NCBI RefSeq assembly: GCF_003990915.1
Contig: NZ_BHXQ01000005.1
Location: 124,001 to 188,000, forward strand
Direction of reading: 5' to 3'
DNA from: Chryseotalea sanaruensis
GTDB taxonomy: Bacteria; Bacteroidota; Bacteroidia; Cytophagales; Cyclobacteriaceae
Length of the DNA stretch: 64,000 nt
Position 1 is the stretch's first letter, and each line of letters begins with the position of its first letter. This document shows positions 41,760-47,388 of the stretch, piece after piece. The notes beneath the pieces were generated by a model. That model was not told the origin of the DNA. It saw only the letters and a program-made list of their open reading frames with translations, and did no database searches. A program made the translations under genes and the position numbers.

Positions 41760-43241
41760 TTAGTTTTCAAATCCCAACTGACTTACTCCAGCTGACCAGT
41801 ATAATAAGGCTTTGCTCTTTTCATACTCGGTAAGCATTTTTAAGAACTTGGCCTGTGCATTAATTAATTTTTCCTGTTGAATATTGATTTTAAAGAGGTC
41901 ACTCTCCCCATTTTCCAGGTTCATAAATTCAGCCGCTAGTAAGCGTTCATAGTTTTCAACCATAGAAGCTAGTTGTGCTATCATACTACCCGTGACATCC
42001 ATGGTGTTATAGGCACTTTCAATTTGGTTGAGTATATCGCGCTCAGCCAACCCTCTTTCAAATGCTGTAGAAGTGATCTTAATCTTAGTTTGCGCCAACT
42101 TTGCCCTTTCTTTTCTTAGAAAGATTGGAAAAGAAAAATCAAGACCAAATTTATAGTTCTCACCTAAATCAAAAGATGAGTTCCACCTAGGATCGAACGG
42201 CTGATTTAAAAAAGTATAGCTGGCATCTAAGGTGGGTTTTAAAAATTCAACTGCTAGTTTTCTTTCAACATCTAGTTGCTCAAGTTTAACAGATAATTTT
42301 CTTAATTCAGGATGATTCTGTTTGGCTTGAATCTTTAATTCTTCTAATGCACCCTTTGTTAAACTCCAGTTTTCGCTCGGTCTTACAGGTGCTAGGTTGA
42401 GTGAAAGTATGAGTGGGTTTGATAGGCTATCCCACAAATAGGTGGATAGTTGTATGCCAGTATTTCTAAAATCAAGTAAAGCTTCTTGTTGCTGGACTAA
42501 ACGCTCCTGTAGCGTTATTTGTGCTTGTACGGTATCAATGGATGCGGCTTCACCCTGTAAAGCATTTATTTTTACTCTTCTGAAAATTTCCTGGGCTAAA
42601 CGTACACCATTATTCTGTATTCTATAATTGTAATAAGCAAAATACCATTGCCAATATTCTTTGGTTGCTTCTAACAAAAGTTTATTGATAAGTTTTAACT
42701 GTTCTGCTTCAGTCATGTCGCTGAATAATTCTGCCTGTCGAAGTGCAGTTCTCCGCTCATCAGTTATTAAACCCCGACCAAGTGGTACACTTAAGCCCGC
42801 ATAAAATTGCTGATAATTAAATTGGTCTGCGATGTAGTTTTCTGGATTAACATATTGTCCCTGATTGCGCTGAAAACCAACCTTTGGATCGAAAGGTAGA
42901 GCTGTTGGGAATTTTAAGGAACCATCTAATAAATCATAATATTCGGTACCATCTAAATTTTTTTGTTGATAAGACAATTCGAGCTTTGGATCAAAATTGC
43001 CACGTGCCAAACGTATTTCTTGTTTCGCAATATCGGTGAGTAGGTAAGTTTGTTTTGCGGTAGGATGGTTTTCTAAAATAAGAGAATAGAAATTTTCAAG
43101 TGTAAAAGCTTTAACCGTGTCCGGTAAAACGAAAAGAGAATCTTGCTGTGCCTGCACCTTATTCAGGCAGAACACAGCGAAGGTGAATGACACAGTACGC
43201 ATTAGAATCAATAAAGTTTTTCTTCTATATCTCATCTTCAT
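41760..43241 (-). CDS. TolC-family outer membrane efflux protein
   Basis: 493 aa from the ATG at 43241, which lies one base after the HlyD stop and has AAGGAGG 17 bp upstream inside the HlyD gene; the longer in-frame start at 43274 lies inside HlyD and is not favoured. Signal peptide ends near VQAQ. The body is a series of long helices typical of the outer membrane factor fold, with the LPTAL/PLGRGLI strand region and a C-terminal half of KINIQQEKLINAQAKFLKM helices. Forms the outer membrane exit duct for the ABC/HlyD exporter encoded just upstream. Confidence 0.9.
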   Translation of the reverse strand: MKMRYRRKTLLILMRTVSFTFAVFCLNKVQAQQDSLFVLPDTVKAFTLENFYSLILENHPTAKQTYLLTDIAKQEIRLARGNFDPKLELSYQQKNLDGTEYYDLLDGSLKFPTALPFDPKVGFQRNQGQYVNPENYIADQFNYQQFYAGLSVPLGRGLITDERRTALRQAELFSDMTEAEQLKLINKLLLEATKEYWQWYFAYYNYRIQNNGVRLAQEIFRRVKINALQGEAASIDTVQAQITLQERLVQQQEALLDFRNTGIQLSTYLWDSLSNPLILSLNLAPVRPSENWSLTKGALEELKIQAKQNHPELRKLSVKLEQLDVERKLAVEFLKPTLDASYTFLNQPFDPRWNSSFDLGENYKFGLDFSFPIFLRKERAKLAQTKIKITSTAFERGLAERDILNQIESAYNTMDVTGSMIAQLASMVENYERLLAAEFMNLENGESDLFKINIQQEKLINAQAKFLKMLTEYEKSKALLYWSAGVSQLGFEN

Positions 43242-43242
43242 A

Positions 43243-44526
43243 TTACTTTTTAACTGCAGCCTCCTTCTTCTCAATCACATCATCCAATGGCTCTTCATAC
43301 AAACTTGGCGGGAAGCCATTAAGTTGTCGCCATAATTCGTACCATACGGGCACATCCTCAAGCATTACCCAAGCTTTAATTCCAGAACCTACCCTTAATT
43401 GTTTTGGCCATTGTTCATCCTTATCATCGGGTAGTACAATCAAACGAAATTCTCCAGGCTTAGAACTTACATAGTCAATAACTTTTACGGTGCCTCCAAA
43501 AGTACCAACAGATACACTGGGCCAACCTGAAAATTGAAGTGCAGGCCAACCATCAAATTGAATGCGAACGTTTCTTCCTTTTTCTACCAAGGGAACATCC
43601 ATCGCCTTAACATAAAGCTCTACGGCCAAGTCTGATACATCAGGCATAATAGTGCAAATAGGATCACCTTCTTTTACCGTTTCGCCAATACCGGCTTGCA
43701 TTGTTTTAACAATGAAACCGCTTTGTGGAGCTAAAATTTGGTAGCGTTCGTTTCGAATTTGCATATTGGCATATTCATTTCTTAATTTTGAAATTTCACC
43801 TTCTGTGTCAAATAAATCAGCTTGAGTTGAGCTTAAATCGGATTCAGCTTTACTGATTTTATCCATGTATTCAGCCTCGACCCTGTCTAATTCGATTTGT
43901 GCATTTAGATAATCAGCTTGTGCGCCTTGATATTTGTATTCAATATCCTGAAACTTGGTAAGGGCAATGTTGCCAGCTTCAAAAAGTTTTTTGTTGCGTT
44001 GATATTGGTTTTCCGCATTTTGAAAGCGAACTTTTTCAGCATCAAGTTTTGCCTTACTCTGATCCAGTTTATTAGCCAATGTTGCACGTAGCGCTTGTAT
44101 TTGTCTTTGAAGTGCTTTTGCCTTACTCTCTTTAGAATCCAAACTGCTAACCTTAGCACTCAATTGCTCTTTTAGCCTTAGTAATAATTGAGGATCAAAA
44201 TACTTTTCTTTAACCTCTCGAATAGTGATGATGGTGTCTCCCTTTAAAACGAAGTCACCTTCGCGTACATGCCAAATTTGTATCTGGCCGGCAATAACAG
44301 ACTCGATTGTTTGCGGACGATTAGCAGGGTTAAAGGCAGTAACCTTACCAGTTCCCCTAACATTTTGTTGCCACGGCAAGAACAAAATAACTGTACCAAT
44401 AAACCCAATAGTGGCTAAGATGGCTGCAAGAGTTTTTCCAGTATTCGGTGTTTTCAATGCACGCAATGAATACAAGCGGTCCTGATGAATAGCACGTTCA
44501 ATTCTATTTTTTGATAAATTCAGCAT
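43243..44526 (-). CDS. HlyD-like membrane fusion protein
   Basis: 427 aa periplasmic adaptor. One membrane helix near the N-terminus (about 34-52, LAAILATIGFIGTVILFLP), a lipoyl-like half (about 75-110, GQIQIWHVREGDFVLKGDTI), a long coiled coil (about 115-265), the second lipoyl half ILAPQSGFIVKTMQAGIGE, then a beta-barrel part. It bridges the inner membrane ABC subunit and the TolC protein. Gap of two bases from the ABC gene and one base to TolC: fully coupled operon. Confidence 0.92.
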   Translation of the reverse strand: MLNLSKNRIERAIHQDRLYSLRALKTPNTGKTLAAILATIGFIGTVILFLPWQQNVRGTGKVTAFNPANRPQTIESVIAGQIQIWHVREGDFVLKGDTIITIREVKEKYFDPQLLLRLKEQLSAKVSSLDSKESKAKALQRQIQALRATLANKLDQSKAKLDAEKVRFQNAENQYQRNKKLFEAGNIALTKFQDIEYKYQGAQADYLNAQIELDRVEAEYMDKISKAESDLSSTQADLFDTEGEISKLRNEYANMQIRNERYQILAPQSGFIVKTMQAGIGETVKEGDPICTIMPDVSDLAVELYVKAMDVPLVEKGRNVRIQFDGWPALQFSGWPSVSVGTFGGTVKVIDYVSSKPGEFRLIVLPDDKDEQWPKQLRVGSGIKAWVMLEDVPVWYELWRQLNGFPPSLYEEPLDDVIEKKEAAVKK

Positions 44527-44528
44527 AC

Positions 44529-46706
44529 TTATTCTATATAATTTCCTAACAAACCTTGTTGCATTAATTCATCAAACTTTCCTTCGCCCAGAATGCTGCC
44601 TTCTCTTATTACAACAACTCGGTCGCAAGAGGCCATTACAAGCGGATCATTAGAAACAACAATGAATGTCCACTTATTTTCTTTGCTCACTAATCGCTCT
44701 ATCAGTAGCACCTTATCAGACTTCTTCATAAAGTTGAAGTAGTCATTTAATATAATCATCTCTGGCTTTTTAGCAATGCAACGCGCCAAGATTAAGCGTT
44801 GGTTAACAGAACTTGAGAAGCCTTTACCACCACTGAGAATGTGCGTATTCAGACCTTCAGGCAAGCTATTTACAAAATCACTTAACCCAACTTTTTCAAG
44901 TGCATCGATGGCGTCCTCTATGCCCTCCGTTGGTTTACCTACTGTAATGTTTTCTAACAGGGTGCCATCAAAAATATCATCGAGTGAAATGTTCTTCGCA
45001 ATTTTATCACGTAAGTGAGTCAGATCGAGATCTCGTATGGAATAATTGTTAATGGTAACAATTCCTGTAAACCCACCCTGTAAACCTGCAATAATATTGG
45101 TTAGTGTAGTCTTACCACTTCCACCAGGCCCCGAAATACAAATTCGTTCACCTGCCTCAATCGATAGATTTAGTTTATTCAAACCATGATCTCCACTTGG
45201 ATATTTGTAATAAACATCTTTTAAGTTTACAGCGTAGCCACGCACTAATTTTTTAGGAAGATCTATTCCGCCTACTTTTTCTAATGGGAGATCAGTTACT
45301 GTTGCTACTTTATCAACGGCAGTTAAAAGATCATAAACTACATCCATGTATGTGATAATTTTTTCAACCGAATTCAAAATCAATATAATGATGACTTCAG
45401 ATGCTACGAACTGACCAAGTGTAATTTGTCTATCGACTACAAGGATGGTTCCCATGATTAAAAGACCTCCGGTTACTGCTGCTTTGAATAGAATAATGAA
45501 TGAAAGCTGACTTATCAAAACATTGAAGTGTGTTTTTCTGTATTTGAGGTAGTTGTTTACATTAATATCTGTTCGTTTAATAGGAAGATCTGTGTTACCT
45601 GCAAGCTTAAACGAGTTCAACGCTCTCGCCAACTCTTCTAACCATTGCGCTACTTTGTATTTGTACTTTGATTCATTAATTGATGACTCCAGACCTCTTG
45701 GGCCAGTAAAATAGAAAATCAGAGCTAATACGGTAACCAGTACCATACTGAAGAAAACGAAGAAGGGGTGGTATAAAGAGAGTAGTAGTAAACCAAAAAA
45801 GATTTGTATACCTGCCGATGACAAATCAATAAGCAACTTAGGTAAGCCTTTTTGAATAGTCATGATATCAAAAAAACGATTGACTAGTTCAGGAGCATAA
45901 TTACCCATGATACTTTCCGTTTTAATACGGGGGATGCGGTAAGCAAATTCCAGGGAAGCTTTGGCGAATAACCTTCGTTGTAAATATTCCACAAGACTTA
46001 TCTGAACTAGCTGCAAACCTCCAGTTAGTAATACCGCCAGAATCAGTAAAGCAATGAGCACATAAATTGAACTGAAGAATACACCGCCAGATACTAATTC
46101 TATAGTGGTTTGAATGCCTAATGGTAACACCAGGCCTAAACCACCAACAACCAGTGCATAAAAAAATATATAATAAATATCTTTTCTCTCAGTTGAGAGT
46201 AAACGCAGGAACCTACGCACGGGACTCATCTTTTCACCAGACAAATCCTGATCGTAACCGTATTCACTTACTAAACCGCGGTAGGGAACAACTACGAAGA
46301 ATGTAATTTCGCTATCATTGTTTAGTAAGAGTTGCGATACATCATCTGTATTGAATTCAGCTTGAGTTGATTCCTCATTGCCTATGATAATCTGTATTAA
46401 TTTTCTTTTTTGCTTGCGGATAATCCATGGGACTACAGCATCTCCGCTATCGTCAAACACAATTACAGAGTCTTCTTCTTTAACAATGAACTGCTTAAAG
46501 TCTTCAGCGGGAAGGCTGTATTCCAGTAGCATCAAACGTACCTTGCTCCCAGCTTCAACAAGGTCTCTTTTAAATTCCTGAAATTCCTCATCATTATAGC
46601 TTCGCCTGTTTGCTTCAGCAAAACGCAAGTCCATAGGATTGAAATCATGCTTCATCAGTAGAGCAGACTCCCGAAGAATACGTACGAGTTGGTCGTTGTT
46701 TAACAT
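44529..46706 (-). CDS. ABC exporter permease/ATPase fusion with degenerate ATPase motifs
   Basis: 725 aa. An N-terminal cytosolic domain of about 165 residues (not a recognisable C39 peptidase) precedes a six-helix exporter membrane domain (about 175-455) and a nucleotide-binding domain (about 490-725). Walker A is good: GPGGSGKT at 526-533. The other motifs are not. The Q-loop Gln position is S574. The signature in the LSGGQ place is FSSSV (630-634, followed by NQR). Walker B is IILND with Y656 where the catalytic Glu should be. The H-loop His position is N686. So it may bind ATP but should hydrolyse poorly. It sits in a TetR-ABC-HlyD-TolC operon like a type I secretion or drug efflux unit. 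Confidence 0.88.
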   Translation of the reverse strand: MLNNDQLVRILRESALLMKHDFNPMDLRFAEANRRSYNDEEFQEFKRDLVEAGSKVRLMLLEYSLPAEDFKQFIVKEEDSVIVFDDSGDAVVPWIIRKQKRKLIQIIIGNEESTQAEFNTDDVSQLLLNNDSEITFFVVVPYRGLVSEYGYDQDLSGEKMSPVRRFLRLLSTERKDIYYIFFYALVVGGLGLVLPLGIQTTIELVSGGVFFSSIYVLIALLILAVLLTGGLQLVQISLVEYLQRRLFAKASLEFAYRIPRIKTESIMGNYAPELVNRFFDIMTIQKGLPKLLIDLSSAGIQIFFGLLLLSLYHPFFVFFSMVLVTVLALIFYFTGPRGLESSINESKYKYKVAQWLEELARALNSFKLAGNTDLPIKRTDINVNNYLKYRKTHFNVLISQLSFIILFKAAVTGGLLIMGTILVVDRQITLGQFVASEVIIILILNSVEKIITYMDVVYDLLTAVDKVATVTDLPLEKVGGIDLPKKLVRGYAVNLKDVYYKYPSGDHGLNKLNLSIEAGERICISGPGGSGKTTLTNIIAGLQGGFTGIVTINNYSIRDLDLTHLRDKIAKNISLDDIFDGTLLENITVGKPTEGIEDAIDALEKVGLSDFVNSLPEGLNTHILSGGKGFSSSVNQRLILARCIAKKPEMIILNDYFNFMKKSDKVLLIERLVSKENKWTFIVVSNDPLVMASCDRVVVIREGSILGEGKFDELMQQGLLGNYIE

Positions 46707-46713
46707 AGTCTGC

Positions 46714-47388
46714 TTACTTTATAGAATTAAAAATAATGGCTTCACAGAATTCATATAGTTTCTGATATGTAACTTGCTTTTCTCCATTTATATCTGTCAA
46801 TGAGGGTAAATGCTTTGCATAAAAAACCTGGTGGTTTGCTGAGAGCATAATTGTACTGATTAAGGTGTGTGGATGTTGGTATGCAGGATTAACCTTTTTT
46901 ATTTCACAAGCTAGTTTGTTACATACTGTTTTATAGGGAATAAATAGCCCCTCCTTATTGTCCAGATCAACTTGCTTGGTCAGATAGGTTTTATCGAACT
47001 CAGACATAACAATGCGTTGTAGCGCTTGTTCATCTACAAAAGCAAAATTTGGATCAGGTTTTTTCTCTTCAATTATTACTTTTAAACCTGCTCGAAGTCG
47101 ATCCTCGGGTGTCAATAAATTTTGCATTGCAAAATCCATTTTATAATCCATCCATGTCCAGTACCAGTCTATTAAATAAACTAATAGCCTGTGTTTATTT
47201 TCAAAGTAGCGGTAAACAGATGCCTCTGTTGATTCGATTTTATCAGCCAGTTTCTTAAAGGTAAAATGCTCAAAACCGATTTCGTCAATCAGTGAAATAC
47301 TGGAGCGAATGATATTTTGACCCAATTCCGAGTTTTGGGGATCTTTTAAGAAAAGGTTTTCATTTAATCTAAAAGAAATGATAGTCAT
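46714..47388 (-). CDS. TetR/AcrR-family regulator of the exporter operon
   Basis: 224 aa. The helix-turn-helix at about 22-65 reads IIRSSISLIDEIGFEHFTFK, KLADKIESTEASVYRYFENK and KHRLLVYLID, a standard TetR N-terminal domain; the ligand-binding half is helical and not assigned. It is the first gene of the operon and lies 7 bp before the ABC gene. A perfect 13-bp palindrome lies 14 bp upstream of its start and could be its operator, which would make the exporter self-regulated. Confidence 0.85.
   Translation of the reverse strand: MTIISFRLNENLFLKDPQNSELGQNIIRSSISLIDEIGFEHFTFKKLADKIESTEASVYRYFENKHRLLVYLIDWYWTWMDYKMDFAMQNLLTPEDRLRAGLKVIIEEKKPDPNFAFVDEQALQRIVMSEFDKTYLTKQVDLDNKEGLFIPYKTVCNKLACEIKKVNPAYQHPHTLISTIMLSANHQVFYAKHLPSLTDINGEKQVTYQKLYEFCEAIIFNSIK

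Follow-up and report, generated by a model that had tools for sequence, protein, structure and literature searches.

Results

The operon and the exporter that it encodes

The window analyzed here is a stretch of 64,000 nucleotides from Chryseotalea sanaruensis (contig NZ_BHXQ01000005.1, positions 124,001 to 188,000). It carries an operon that is headed by a gene for a TetR-type regulator and continues with genes for an ABC exporter, an HlyD-type adaptor, and a TolC-type outer membrane factor (Table 1). An earlier note on this DNA had described the exporter frame as open throughout, the HlyD and TolC genes as intact, and the operon as lacking a second ABC gene; the ORF list of the window agrees on each point. 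In Pfam, the exporter scored above the cut-offs for both the membrane domain PF00664 (42 bits, cut-off 28) and the nucleotide-binding domain (NBD) PF00005 (65.3 bits, cut-off 25). Its best NCBIfam matches, TIGR03375 (169.9 of 693.1 bits) and TIGR03796 (169.3 of 853.3 bits), were far below cut-off, and so was the type I secretion ABC model TIGR01846 (126.8 of 725.55 bits).

Table 1. Features of the exporter operon in the window (coordinates of the 64,000-nucleotide stretch)
Feature	Coordinates	Strand	Basis or remark
TetR-type regulator, head of the operon	46714..47388	-	
Degenerate ABC exporter: C39-like N-terminal domain, six-helix transmembrane domain (TMD), NBD	44529..46706	-	725 aa ORF; PF00664 and PF00005
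C39-like domain, residues 1-158, without any Cys (no peptidase nucleophile)	46233..46706	-	Model and VIA-align
TMD, residues 160-486; the best conserved part	45249..46229	-	Sequence comparison and model
E437 in TM6, candidate ion-coupling residue	45396..45398	-	Kept in family rows
NBD, residues 490-725; folded, hydrolysis motifs gone	44532..45239	-	Z 30.3 to the ComA NBD (3vx4)
Walker A GPGGSGKT, residues 526-533, intact	45108..45131	-	
Q-loop position, S574	44985..44987	-	HMMER alignments
Signature position FSSSV, residues 630-634	44805..44819	-	HMMER alignments
N654 at the Walker B Asp position, D655 at that of the catalytic Glu	44742..44747	-	HMMER alignments
H-loop position, N686	44649..44651	-	HMMER alignments
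HlyD-type periplasmic adaptor, 427 aa	43243..44526	-	
TolC-type outer membrane factor	41760..43274	-	True start probably within the listed ORF

The AlphaFold model of the exporter (pLDDT 80, pTM 0.60) resembles exporters of the HlyB, MsbA, and PCAT1 kind with Z scores of about 29-30; HlyB (8dck), for example, aligned over 672 residues at Z 28.9. By fold, the protein is a type IV ABC exporter, a membership that does not by itself establish ATPase activity. The N-terminal domain, modelled alone at pLDDT 88.5, was matched by VIA-align to HlyB (7sgr, Z 11.2), the ComA peptidase (5xe9, Z 11.1), and a C39-like domain (3zua, Z 10.6); Foldseek alone gave no match for this domain at E < 0.001, the best being E 0.0026. 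The only cysteines of the protein are at positions 523, 643, and 694.

The operon is conserved well beyond C. sanaruensis. Of 70 loci in named sequence records, 63 (L042-L104) are close relatives and the other seven are distant ABC genes. HlyD accompanies the ABC gene in 62 of the 63 and TolC in 61, and the exceptions (L062 and L047) run into the end of a contig. Within up to 5 kb on each side, these 63 loci contain no separate second ABC ORF. The TetR gene is present in 38 of them and absent from those of Arcicella, Siphonobacter, and Flectobacillus; this gene suggests that the substrate is an inducible small molecule. In a few of the loci, the degenerate ABC gene is split in two pieces. One record (L104), titled Cellulophaga sp. 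BC115SP, has a protein that is nearly identical in the motif stretches to that of Flectobacillus (L101), and the record may be mislabelled.

Five of six classical NBD sites are altered

Each residue named in the earlier note lies where the note had put it: GPGGSGKT at 526-533, S574, FSSSV at 630-634, D655, Y656, and N686. Two of the roles assigned to them have to be revised, however. The note had taken D655 as the Walker B Asp and Y656 as the catalytic Glu, whereas HMMER alignments against canonical exporters pair L-N654-D655-Y656 with L-D-E-A, which puts N654 at the Walker B Asp position and D655 at that of the catalytic Glu. The degeneracy claimed for four of five sites is real in kind but larger in extent: the Q-loop, signature, Walker B Asp, catalytic Glu, and H-loop (N686) are all changed, and among the six sites Walker A alone is intact. 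Y500, the aromatic residue of the A-loop, is intact as well. An LSGG at 624-627 was considered as a displaced signature and rejected; measured from the QRL..AR stretch, it comes six residues too soon, and relatives do not conserve it. In the same genome, nine further exporters are near-canonical, with the Walker A Lys in nine, the Q-loop Gln in nine, an S-G-G signature in seven, the Walker B Asp in nine, the catalytic Glu in eight, and the H-loop His in nine.

The altered residues are a property of a clade

The gene is present in all five genomes of the genus examined, including that of C. sanaruensis itself, and the same motif state is found in the three other members whose C-terminal part is read in one frame (L013, L014, and L015). 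At E 1e-60 or better, a relative occurs in 163 of 196 genomes of the GTDB family of the window, and a profile search across the phylum matched 97 of 395 genomes at 1e-90. Almost all of the 63 close relatives in named records come under titles of Cytophagales and include Chryseolinea, Roseivirga, Fulvivirga, Arcicella, Siphonobacter, and Flectobacillus, and the degenerate stage is present in named strains of Arcicella, Roseivirga, and Chryseolinea. NBD-bearing relatives have two forms, a long one of about 725 residues and a short one of about 550-640 residues without the N-terminal domain.

Dropping identical TMDs reduced 229 rows to 192, and nine that were split, contig-cut, or too divergent were removed; the remaining 183 rows comprise 86 long, 57 short, 28 NBD-less, 10 semi-canonical, and two sphingomonad proteins. 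In a single MAFFT alignment, where individual residues of divergent rows may be misplaced, the 86 long forms have the Walker A Lys in 86 and its Ser/Thr in 54, the Walker B Asp in two, an Asp in place of the catalytic Glu in all 86, and the H-loop His in three, all Siphonobacter (L085, L095, and L097); the Q-loop Gln, S-G-G signature, and catalytic Glu occur in none. The 57 short forms, read from the same alignment, have the Lys in 55, Ser/Thr in 53, Gln in three, no signature, the Walker B Asp in 13, the Glu in six (Asp in 34), and no His. Over both forms (n = 143), the signature is found in no protein, the Gln in three, the Glu in six, and the His in three. Among the long forms, 48 of 86 have a Cys at one position or another of the N-terminal stretch.

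Only more distant relatives keep the Walker B Asp-Glu pair and the His, and even these are without the Gln and the signature. Ten such semi-canonical rows from other families of the phylum (L168, L169, and L171-L178) have the Lys in 10, the Walker B Asp in 10, the Glu in 10, and the His in eight, with neither Gln nor signature in any; they are possibly an intermediate state. A UvrA-like gene beside L175/L176 was set aside as a chance neighbor after the ORF sequences had been read by eye. Both sphingomonad proteins, L239 (Novosphingobium plasmid pNL2) and L242 (a Sphingomonas hankookensis plasmid), have the same ABC-HlyD-TolC gene order and have lost the Walker A Lys; their NBD has possibly degenerated independently. 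In two full-length members, the NBD has degenerated further: L179 has no Walker A, and the NBD of L237, which was dropped from the row set, has diverged to the point that it gives no Pfam match.

These alignments bear directly on whether the gene is merely dying in this strain. Motif loss is all that speaks for local decay, and the chance of it is next to nil: the same state recurs in L013, L014, and L015 and across the family, and within the genus the TMD is 91-94% identical although synonymous sites are saturated, so that the homologs refute it. The earlier note had held the gene to be maintained, and its presence throughout genus and family, the conserved TMD, and the retained operon bear this out. 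It had also asked whether the altered residues are shared by a clade; once the motifs of the relatives were aligned, the same positions proved non-canonical in nearly all of them, and no homologs with canonical sites, the finding that the note had set against its own reading, were seen among the 143 long and short relatives. The degenerate exporter represents a Bacteroidota family with HlyD and TolC alongside and is not the decaying gene of a single strain.

The TMD is better conserved than the NBD

In the long forms, identity is 65.5% in the TMD versus 47.7% in the NBD, and in the short forms 54.7% versus 33.4%; for each form 800 pairs were sampled, and the TMD was the more conserved domain in every one. 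The same holds for 36 of 45 pairs of the semi-canonical group. In a canonical control, 30 orthologs of one exporter of the window genome, the balance was reversed, with the TMD at 68.9% and the NBD at 72.0%; of 435 pairs, 301 had the higher identity in the NBD. For the window protein, identity within the genus is 77-87% in the NBD and 52-71% in the C39-like domain, which evolves fastest. The contrast between TMD and NBD is weaker here than above, and one of two canonical controls likewise has its NBD below its TMD throughout. Synonymous sites are saturated in the within-genus pairs of the gene, and no dN/dS ratio is given.

Because the NBD keeps this identity although synonymous sites are saturated, it is still under purifying selection within the genus. 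Seven of its positions (Y500, G526, G531, K532, D655, S685, and D687) are invariant in the 44 long proteins aligned, which, together with the purifying selection, argues that the NBD of the long branch is kept for some role, probably nucleotide binding. All 86 long forms and 55 of the 57 short ones keep the Walker A Lys, and all 44 long forms aligned keep Y500, so that binding of ATP may still be important.

These observations raise the alternative that the exporter is still run by ATP, with D655 in place of the catalytic Glu and with weak hydrolysis, or ATP binding alone, driving slow transport. It would account for the Asp at this position (all 86 long forms and 34 of the 57 short ones), the retained Walker A and A-loop, and the selection on the NBD. 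We nevertheless regard it as quite improbable, given that most members have lost the signature, Q-loop, Walker B Asp, and H-loop all at once, that this would affect both sites of a homodimer, that the Walker A Ser/Thr is gone from 32 of 86 long forms, and that Walker A is lost in L179 and the two sphingomonad proteins and the whole NBD in others, as described below.

A nested clade has no NBD

In the phylum search, six proteins of 334-360 residues consist of the TMD only; they stop at the point where an NBD would start, and HlyD and TolC come next. A search with an NBD-less profile found at least 46 such ORFs in at least 45 of 291 genomes of the order, and at least nine of 395 genomes of the class have them, four of which are common to the order search. 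Altogether, NBD-less ORFs of 334-394 residues were found in at least 50 genomes from four family-level groups (f2, f3, f4, and f70), of which 28 were read in context, with HlyD next in each, and 22 were judged by open-frame length alone; two ORFs at a contig end (L219, 353 residues, in genome G1044, which had looked like a tenth case in the class search, and L217) were left out of this count. The 28 distinct sequences end 0-4 residues past the TMD match. In Pfam, L162 and L166 have ABC_membrane (PF00664) above cut-off and no ABC_tran, and PDB sequences searched with a profile of the NBD-less proteins gave no match at 1e-5. One genome (G705) has two NBD-less operons (L235 and L236) about 300 kb apart on one contig.

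On a quick TMD tree of 111 rows, built without bootstrap, rooted on the sphingomonads, and flagged for long branches, the 28 NBD-less proteins form one clade (SH-aLRT 100). It is nested in a branch (SH-aLRT 99) with eight long and one short degenerate protein, including those of Arcicella, Rhabdobacter, and Siphonobacter, and the semi-canonical and sphingomonad proteins fall outside this branch. The lineage seems to have lost its peptidase chemistry, then its ATPase chemistry, and then, in one clade, both domains.

We searched 15 NBD-less genomes with a degenerate-NBD profile for a stand-alone degenerate NBD and found none. The best match, 146.5 bits, compares with 142.6 bits for an ordinary exporter of the window genome and 280-361 bits in four genomes with the full gene, and each genome's best match sits in an ORF of 590-726 residues. 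Because this is the level of an ordinary exporter, these 15 genomes give no sign that the NBD now sits in a gene of its own. When plasmids were searched with an NBD-less protein, 22 records matched, and the NBD region is still present in all four examined (Novosphingobium, Riemerella, Persicobacter, and Sphingomonas).

The earlier note had proposed two ways for such an exporter to work; a change to ion-gradient energy was not among them. The family as a whole cannot depend on gating by ATP binding, because a nested clade has no NBD; in the branch of the window protein, where the Walker A Lys and the A-loop Tyr are invariant, ATP binding may still play a role. The second proposal, pairing with an ABC protein encoded elsewhere, would make the protein half of a heterodimer with a canonical exporter, in which a single ATP site would function, an arrangement seen in TAP1/2 and TM287/288. 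Candidate partners exist, as the window genome has nine other exporter-type ABC genes and a canonical exporter of the MsbA type is encoded about 60-1,320 bp upstream in four genomes of another family-level group (f76; L243, L244, L245, and L248), and the retained Walker A would fit. However, no separate second ABC ORF adjoins the operon in the 63 close loci, the nine paralogs are only 20-26% identical to the degenerate protein, 18 of the 68 genomes in which the degenerate gene occurs have no ortholog (E 1e-150) of L002, the one paralog checked, and in the NBD-less relatives the NBD of the partner would be left unpaired. We therefore think a heterodimer unlikely.

Charges in the membrane are kept whatever the state of the NBD

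Five charged residues lie inside predicted membrane segments (TM3, TM5, and TM6) of the window protein: D294, K408, E437, E448, and K449. Across the 171 long, short, and NBD-less rows, D294 is Asp/Glu in 169, K408 is Lys/Arg in 171, E437 and E448 are Glu/Asp in 171 each, and K449 is Lys in 170. At the position of E437, each of the 183 family rows has Glu or, in three rows, Asp, irrespective of how much of the NBD is left, and the 10 semi-canonical and two sphingomonad proteins all have Glu; its counterpart is Glu in none of the nine paralogs of the window genome. A counterpart of E448 is present in the canonical peptide exporter ComA.

The second intracellular loop (residues 362-378), by its position coupling helix 2, is 30.8% identical in the NBD-less clade versus 64.1% for the TMD, and in the long forms 73.7% versus 74.9%. 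The short forms, which keep the NBD, also fall below their TMD in this loop (41.0% versus 57.1%), and relaxation of this loop is therefore not confined to proteins that have lost the NBD. The first intracellular loop stays conserved in the NBD-less clade (73.4%).

A protein without a motor might also be a passive gate or anchor, which opens HlyD-TolC or holds it to the inner membrane, with the TMD preserved because assembly requires it or because it forms a substrate-gated channel. In favor of this, all NBD-less loci read still have HlyD and the NBD can be dispensed with, and active transport by the degenerate exporter is itself our interpretation; the conserved charges in TM3, TM5, and TM6, in turn, would be needless for an anchor, though a gate could use them. 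We judge a gate or anchor unlikely. The loss of the motifs, the conservation of the TMD and the operon, the NBD-less clade, and the relaxed second loop within that clade are established at the level of sequence.

Discussion

ABC transporters are defined by ATP hydrolysis. We lean slightly toward the view that the exporter described here is a TolC-type tripartite system that no longer uses it, in which, we infer, a homodimer devoid of ATPase activity exports its substrate through HlyD-TolC on an ion gradient. Hydrolysis by its own NBD would not be needed, because such a homodimer has two dead sites and the NBD can be lost altogether. The protein would be the inner-membrane pump of an exporter on the HlyB/PCAT plan, with a C39-like domain, a type IV ABC TMD, and an NBD unable to hydrolyze ATP at either composite site; the TMD would do the transport work. 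The motor appears to have been lost stepwise: the Gln and the signature would have gone first, with the Walker B Asp-Glu pair and mostly the His kept, then all hydrolysis residues, as in the window protein, and at last the NBD itself. Transport would most likely be driven by a proton (or sodium) gradient by way of D294, K408, E437, E448, and K449, as in SbmA. In the branch of the window protein, the NBD, which is folded, has probably retained nucleotide binding by its Walker A and A-loop and serves a structural or regulatory function. The wider claim, that a Bacteroidota-wide lineage has turned an ATP-driven two-membrane exporter into an ion-gradient-driven tripartite pump by first inactivating and then deleting its ATPase, independently of SbmA and in the direction of export, is put forward tentatively, as a possibility to which we give a little less than an even chance.

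A search of titles and abstracts in the open-licence PMC literature, the only papers searchable, gave no description of this family, nor did it turn up a tripartite exporter whose ATPase had first lost activity over a large part of a phylum and had later been deleted. Single degenerate sites in heterodimers (PMC7756269) and the NBD-less SbmA (PMC13316013) are already known. The family offers several natural stages of NBD removal within one operon type; the cut MsbA, in the excerpt that describes it, is laboratory-made (PMC4979069). If our reading is true, it is a natural series of an ABC transporter turning into a secondary transporter. The family makes it directly testable whether export across two membranes can be powered by an ABC-fold pump without ATP. 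The annotation "ABC transporter ATP-binding protein" is misleading for such genes.

Among known systems, HlyB, PCAT, and NHLM exporters share with the family the domain order, the fold, and the HlyD and TolC partners; they differ from it in that the family has lost the hydrolysis motifs, has a short form without the N-terminal domain, and includes one clade without the NBD. EmrAB, of the MFS, is driven by a gradient and has an HlyD-like adaptor, and the fold of its inner-membrane component is unrelated to the TMD of ABC exporters. EmrAB-TolC likewise combines an inner-membrane pump, an adaptor, and TolC (PMC8277102, excerpt). The heterodimers TAP1/2, TM287/288, and TmrAB have the Glu and the H-loop changed in one nucleotide site (PMC7756269) and keep one canonical site, whereas both would be dead in a degenerate homodimer.

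Precedents for ion coupling come from ABC exporters themselves. It is reported that proton-coupled efflux persists in MsbA after its truncation to the membrane domain (PMC4979069), that a TM6 Glu of LmrA is needed for proton-coupled transport, and that the LmrA membrane domain conducted ions in earlier work (PMC6155054); counting against ion coupling, truncated LmrA without the NBD gave no ATP-evoked current in one assay (PMC6155054). The closest parallel is SbmA/BacA (SLiPT), a proposed descendant of a full ABC protein that, by the excerpt, has lost the NBD and coupling helices and is proton-driven through a glutamate ladder in the TMD (PMC13316013). Among the Pfam matches of the NBD-less L162 and L166 at E 0.05, there was no SbmA family, so the two systems are likely to have separate origins. 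They are alike in that an ABC-exporter TMD works, or would work, without ATP and carries glutamates. They differ in that the window protein still has its NBD and in that SbmA imports peptides, in a source whose excerpt mentions no HlyD or TolC partners (PMC13316013), whereas our family is proposed to export through both.
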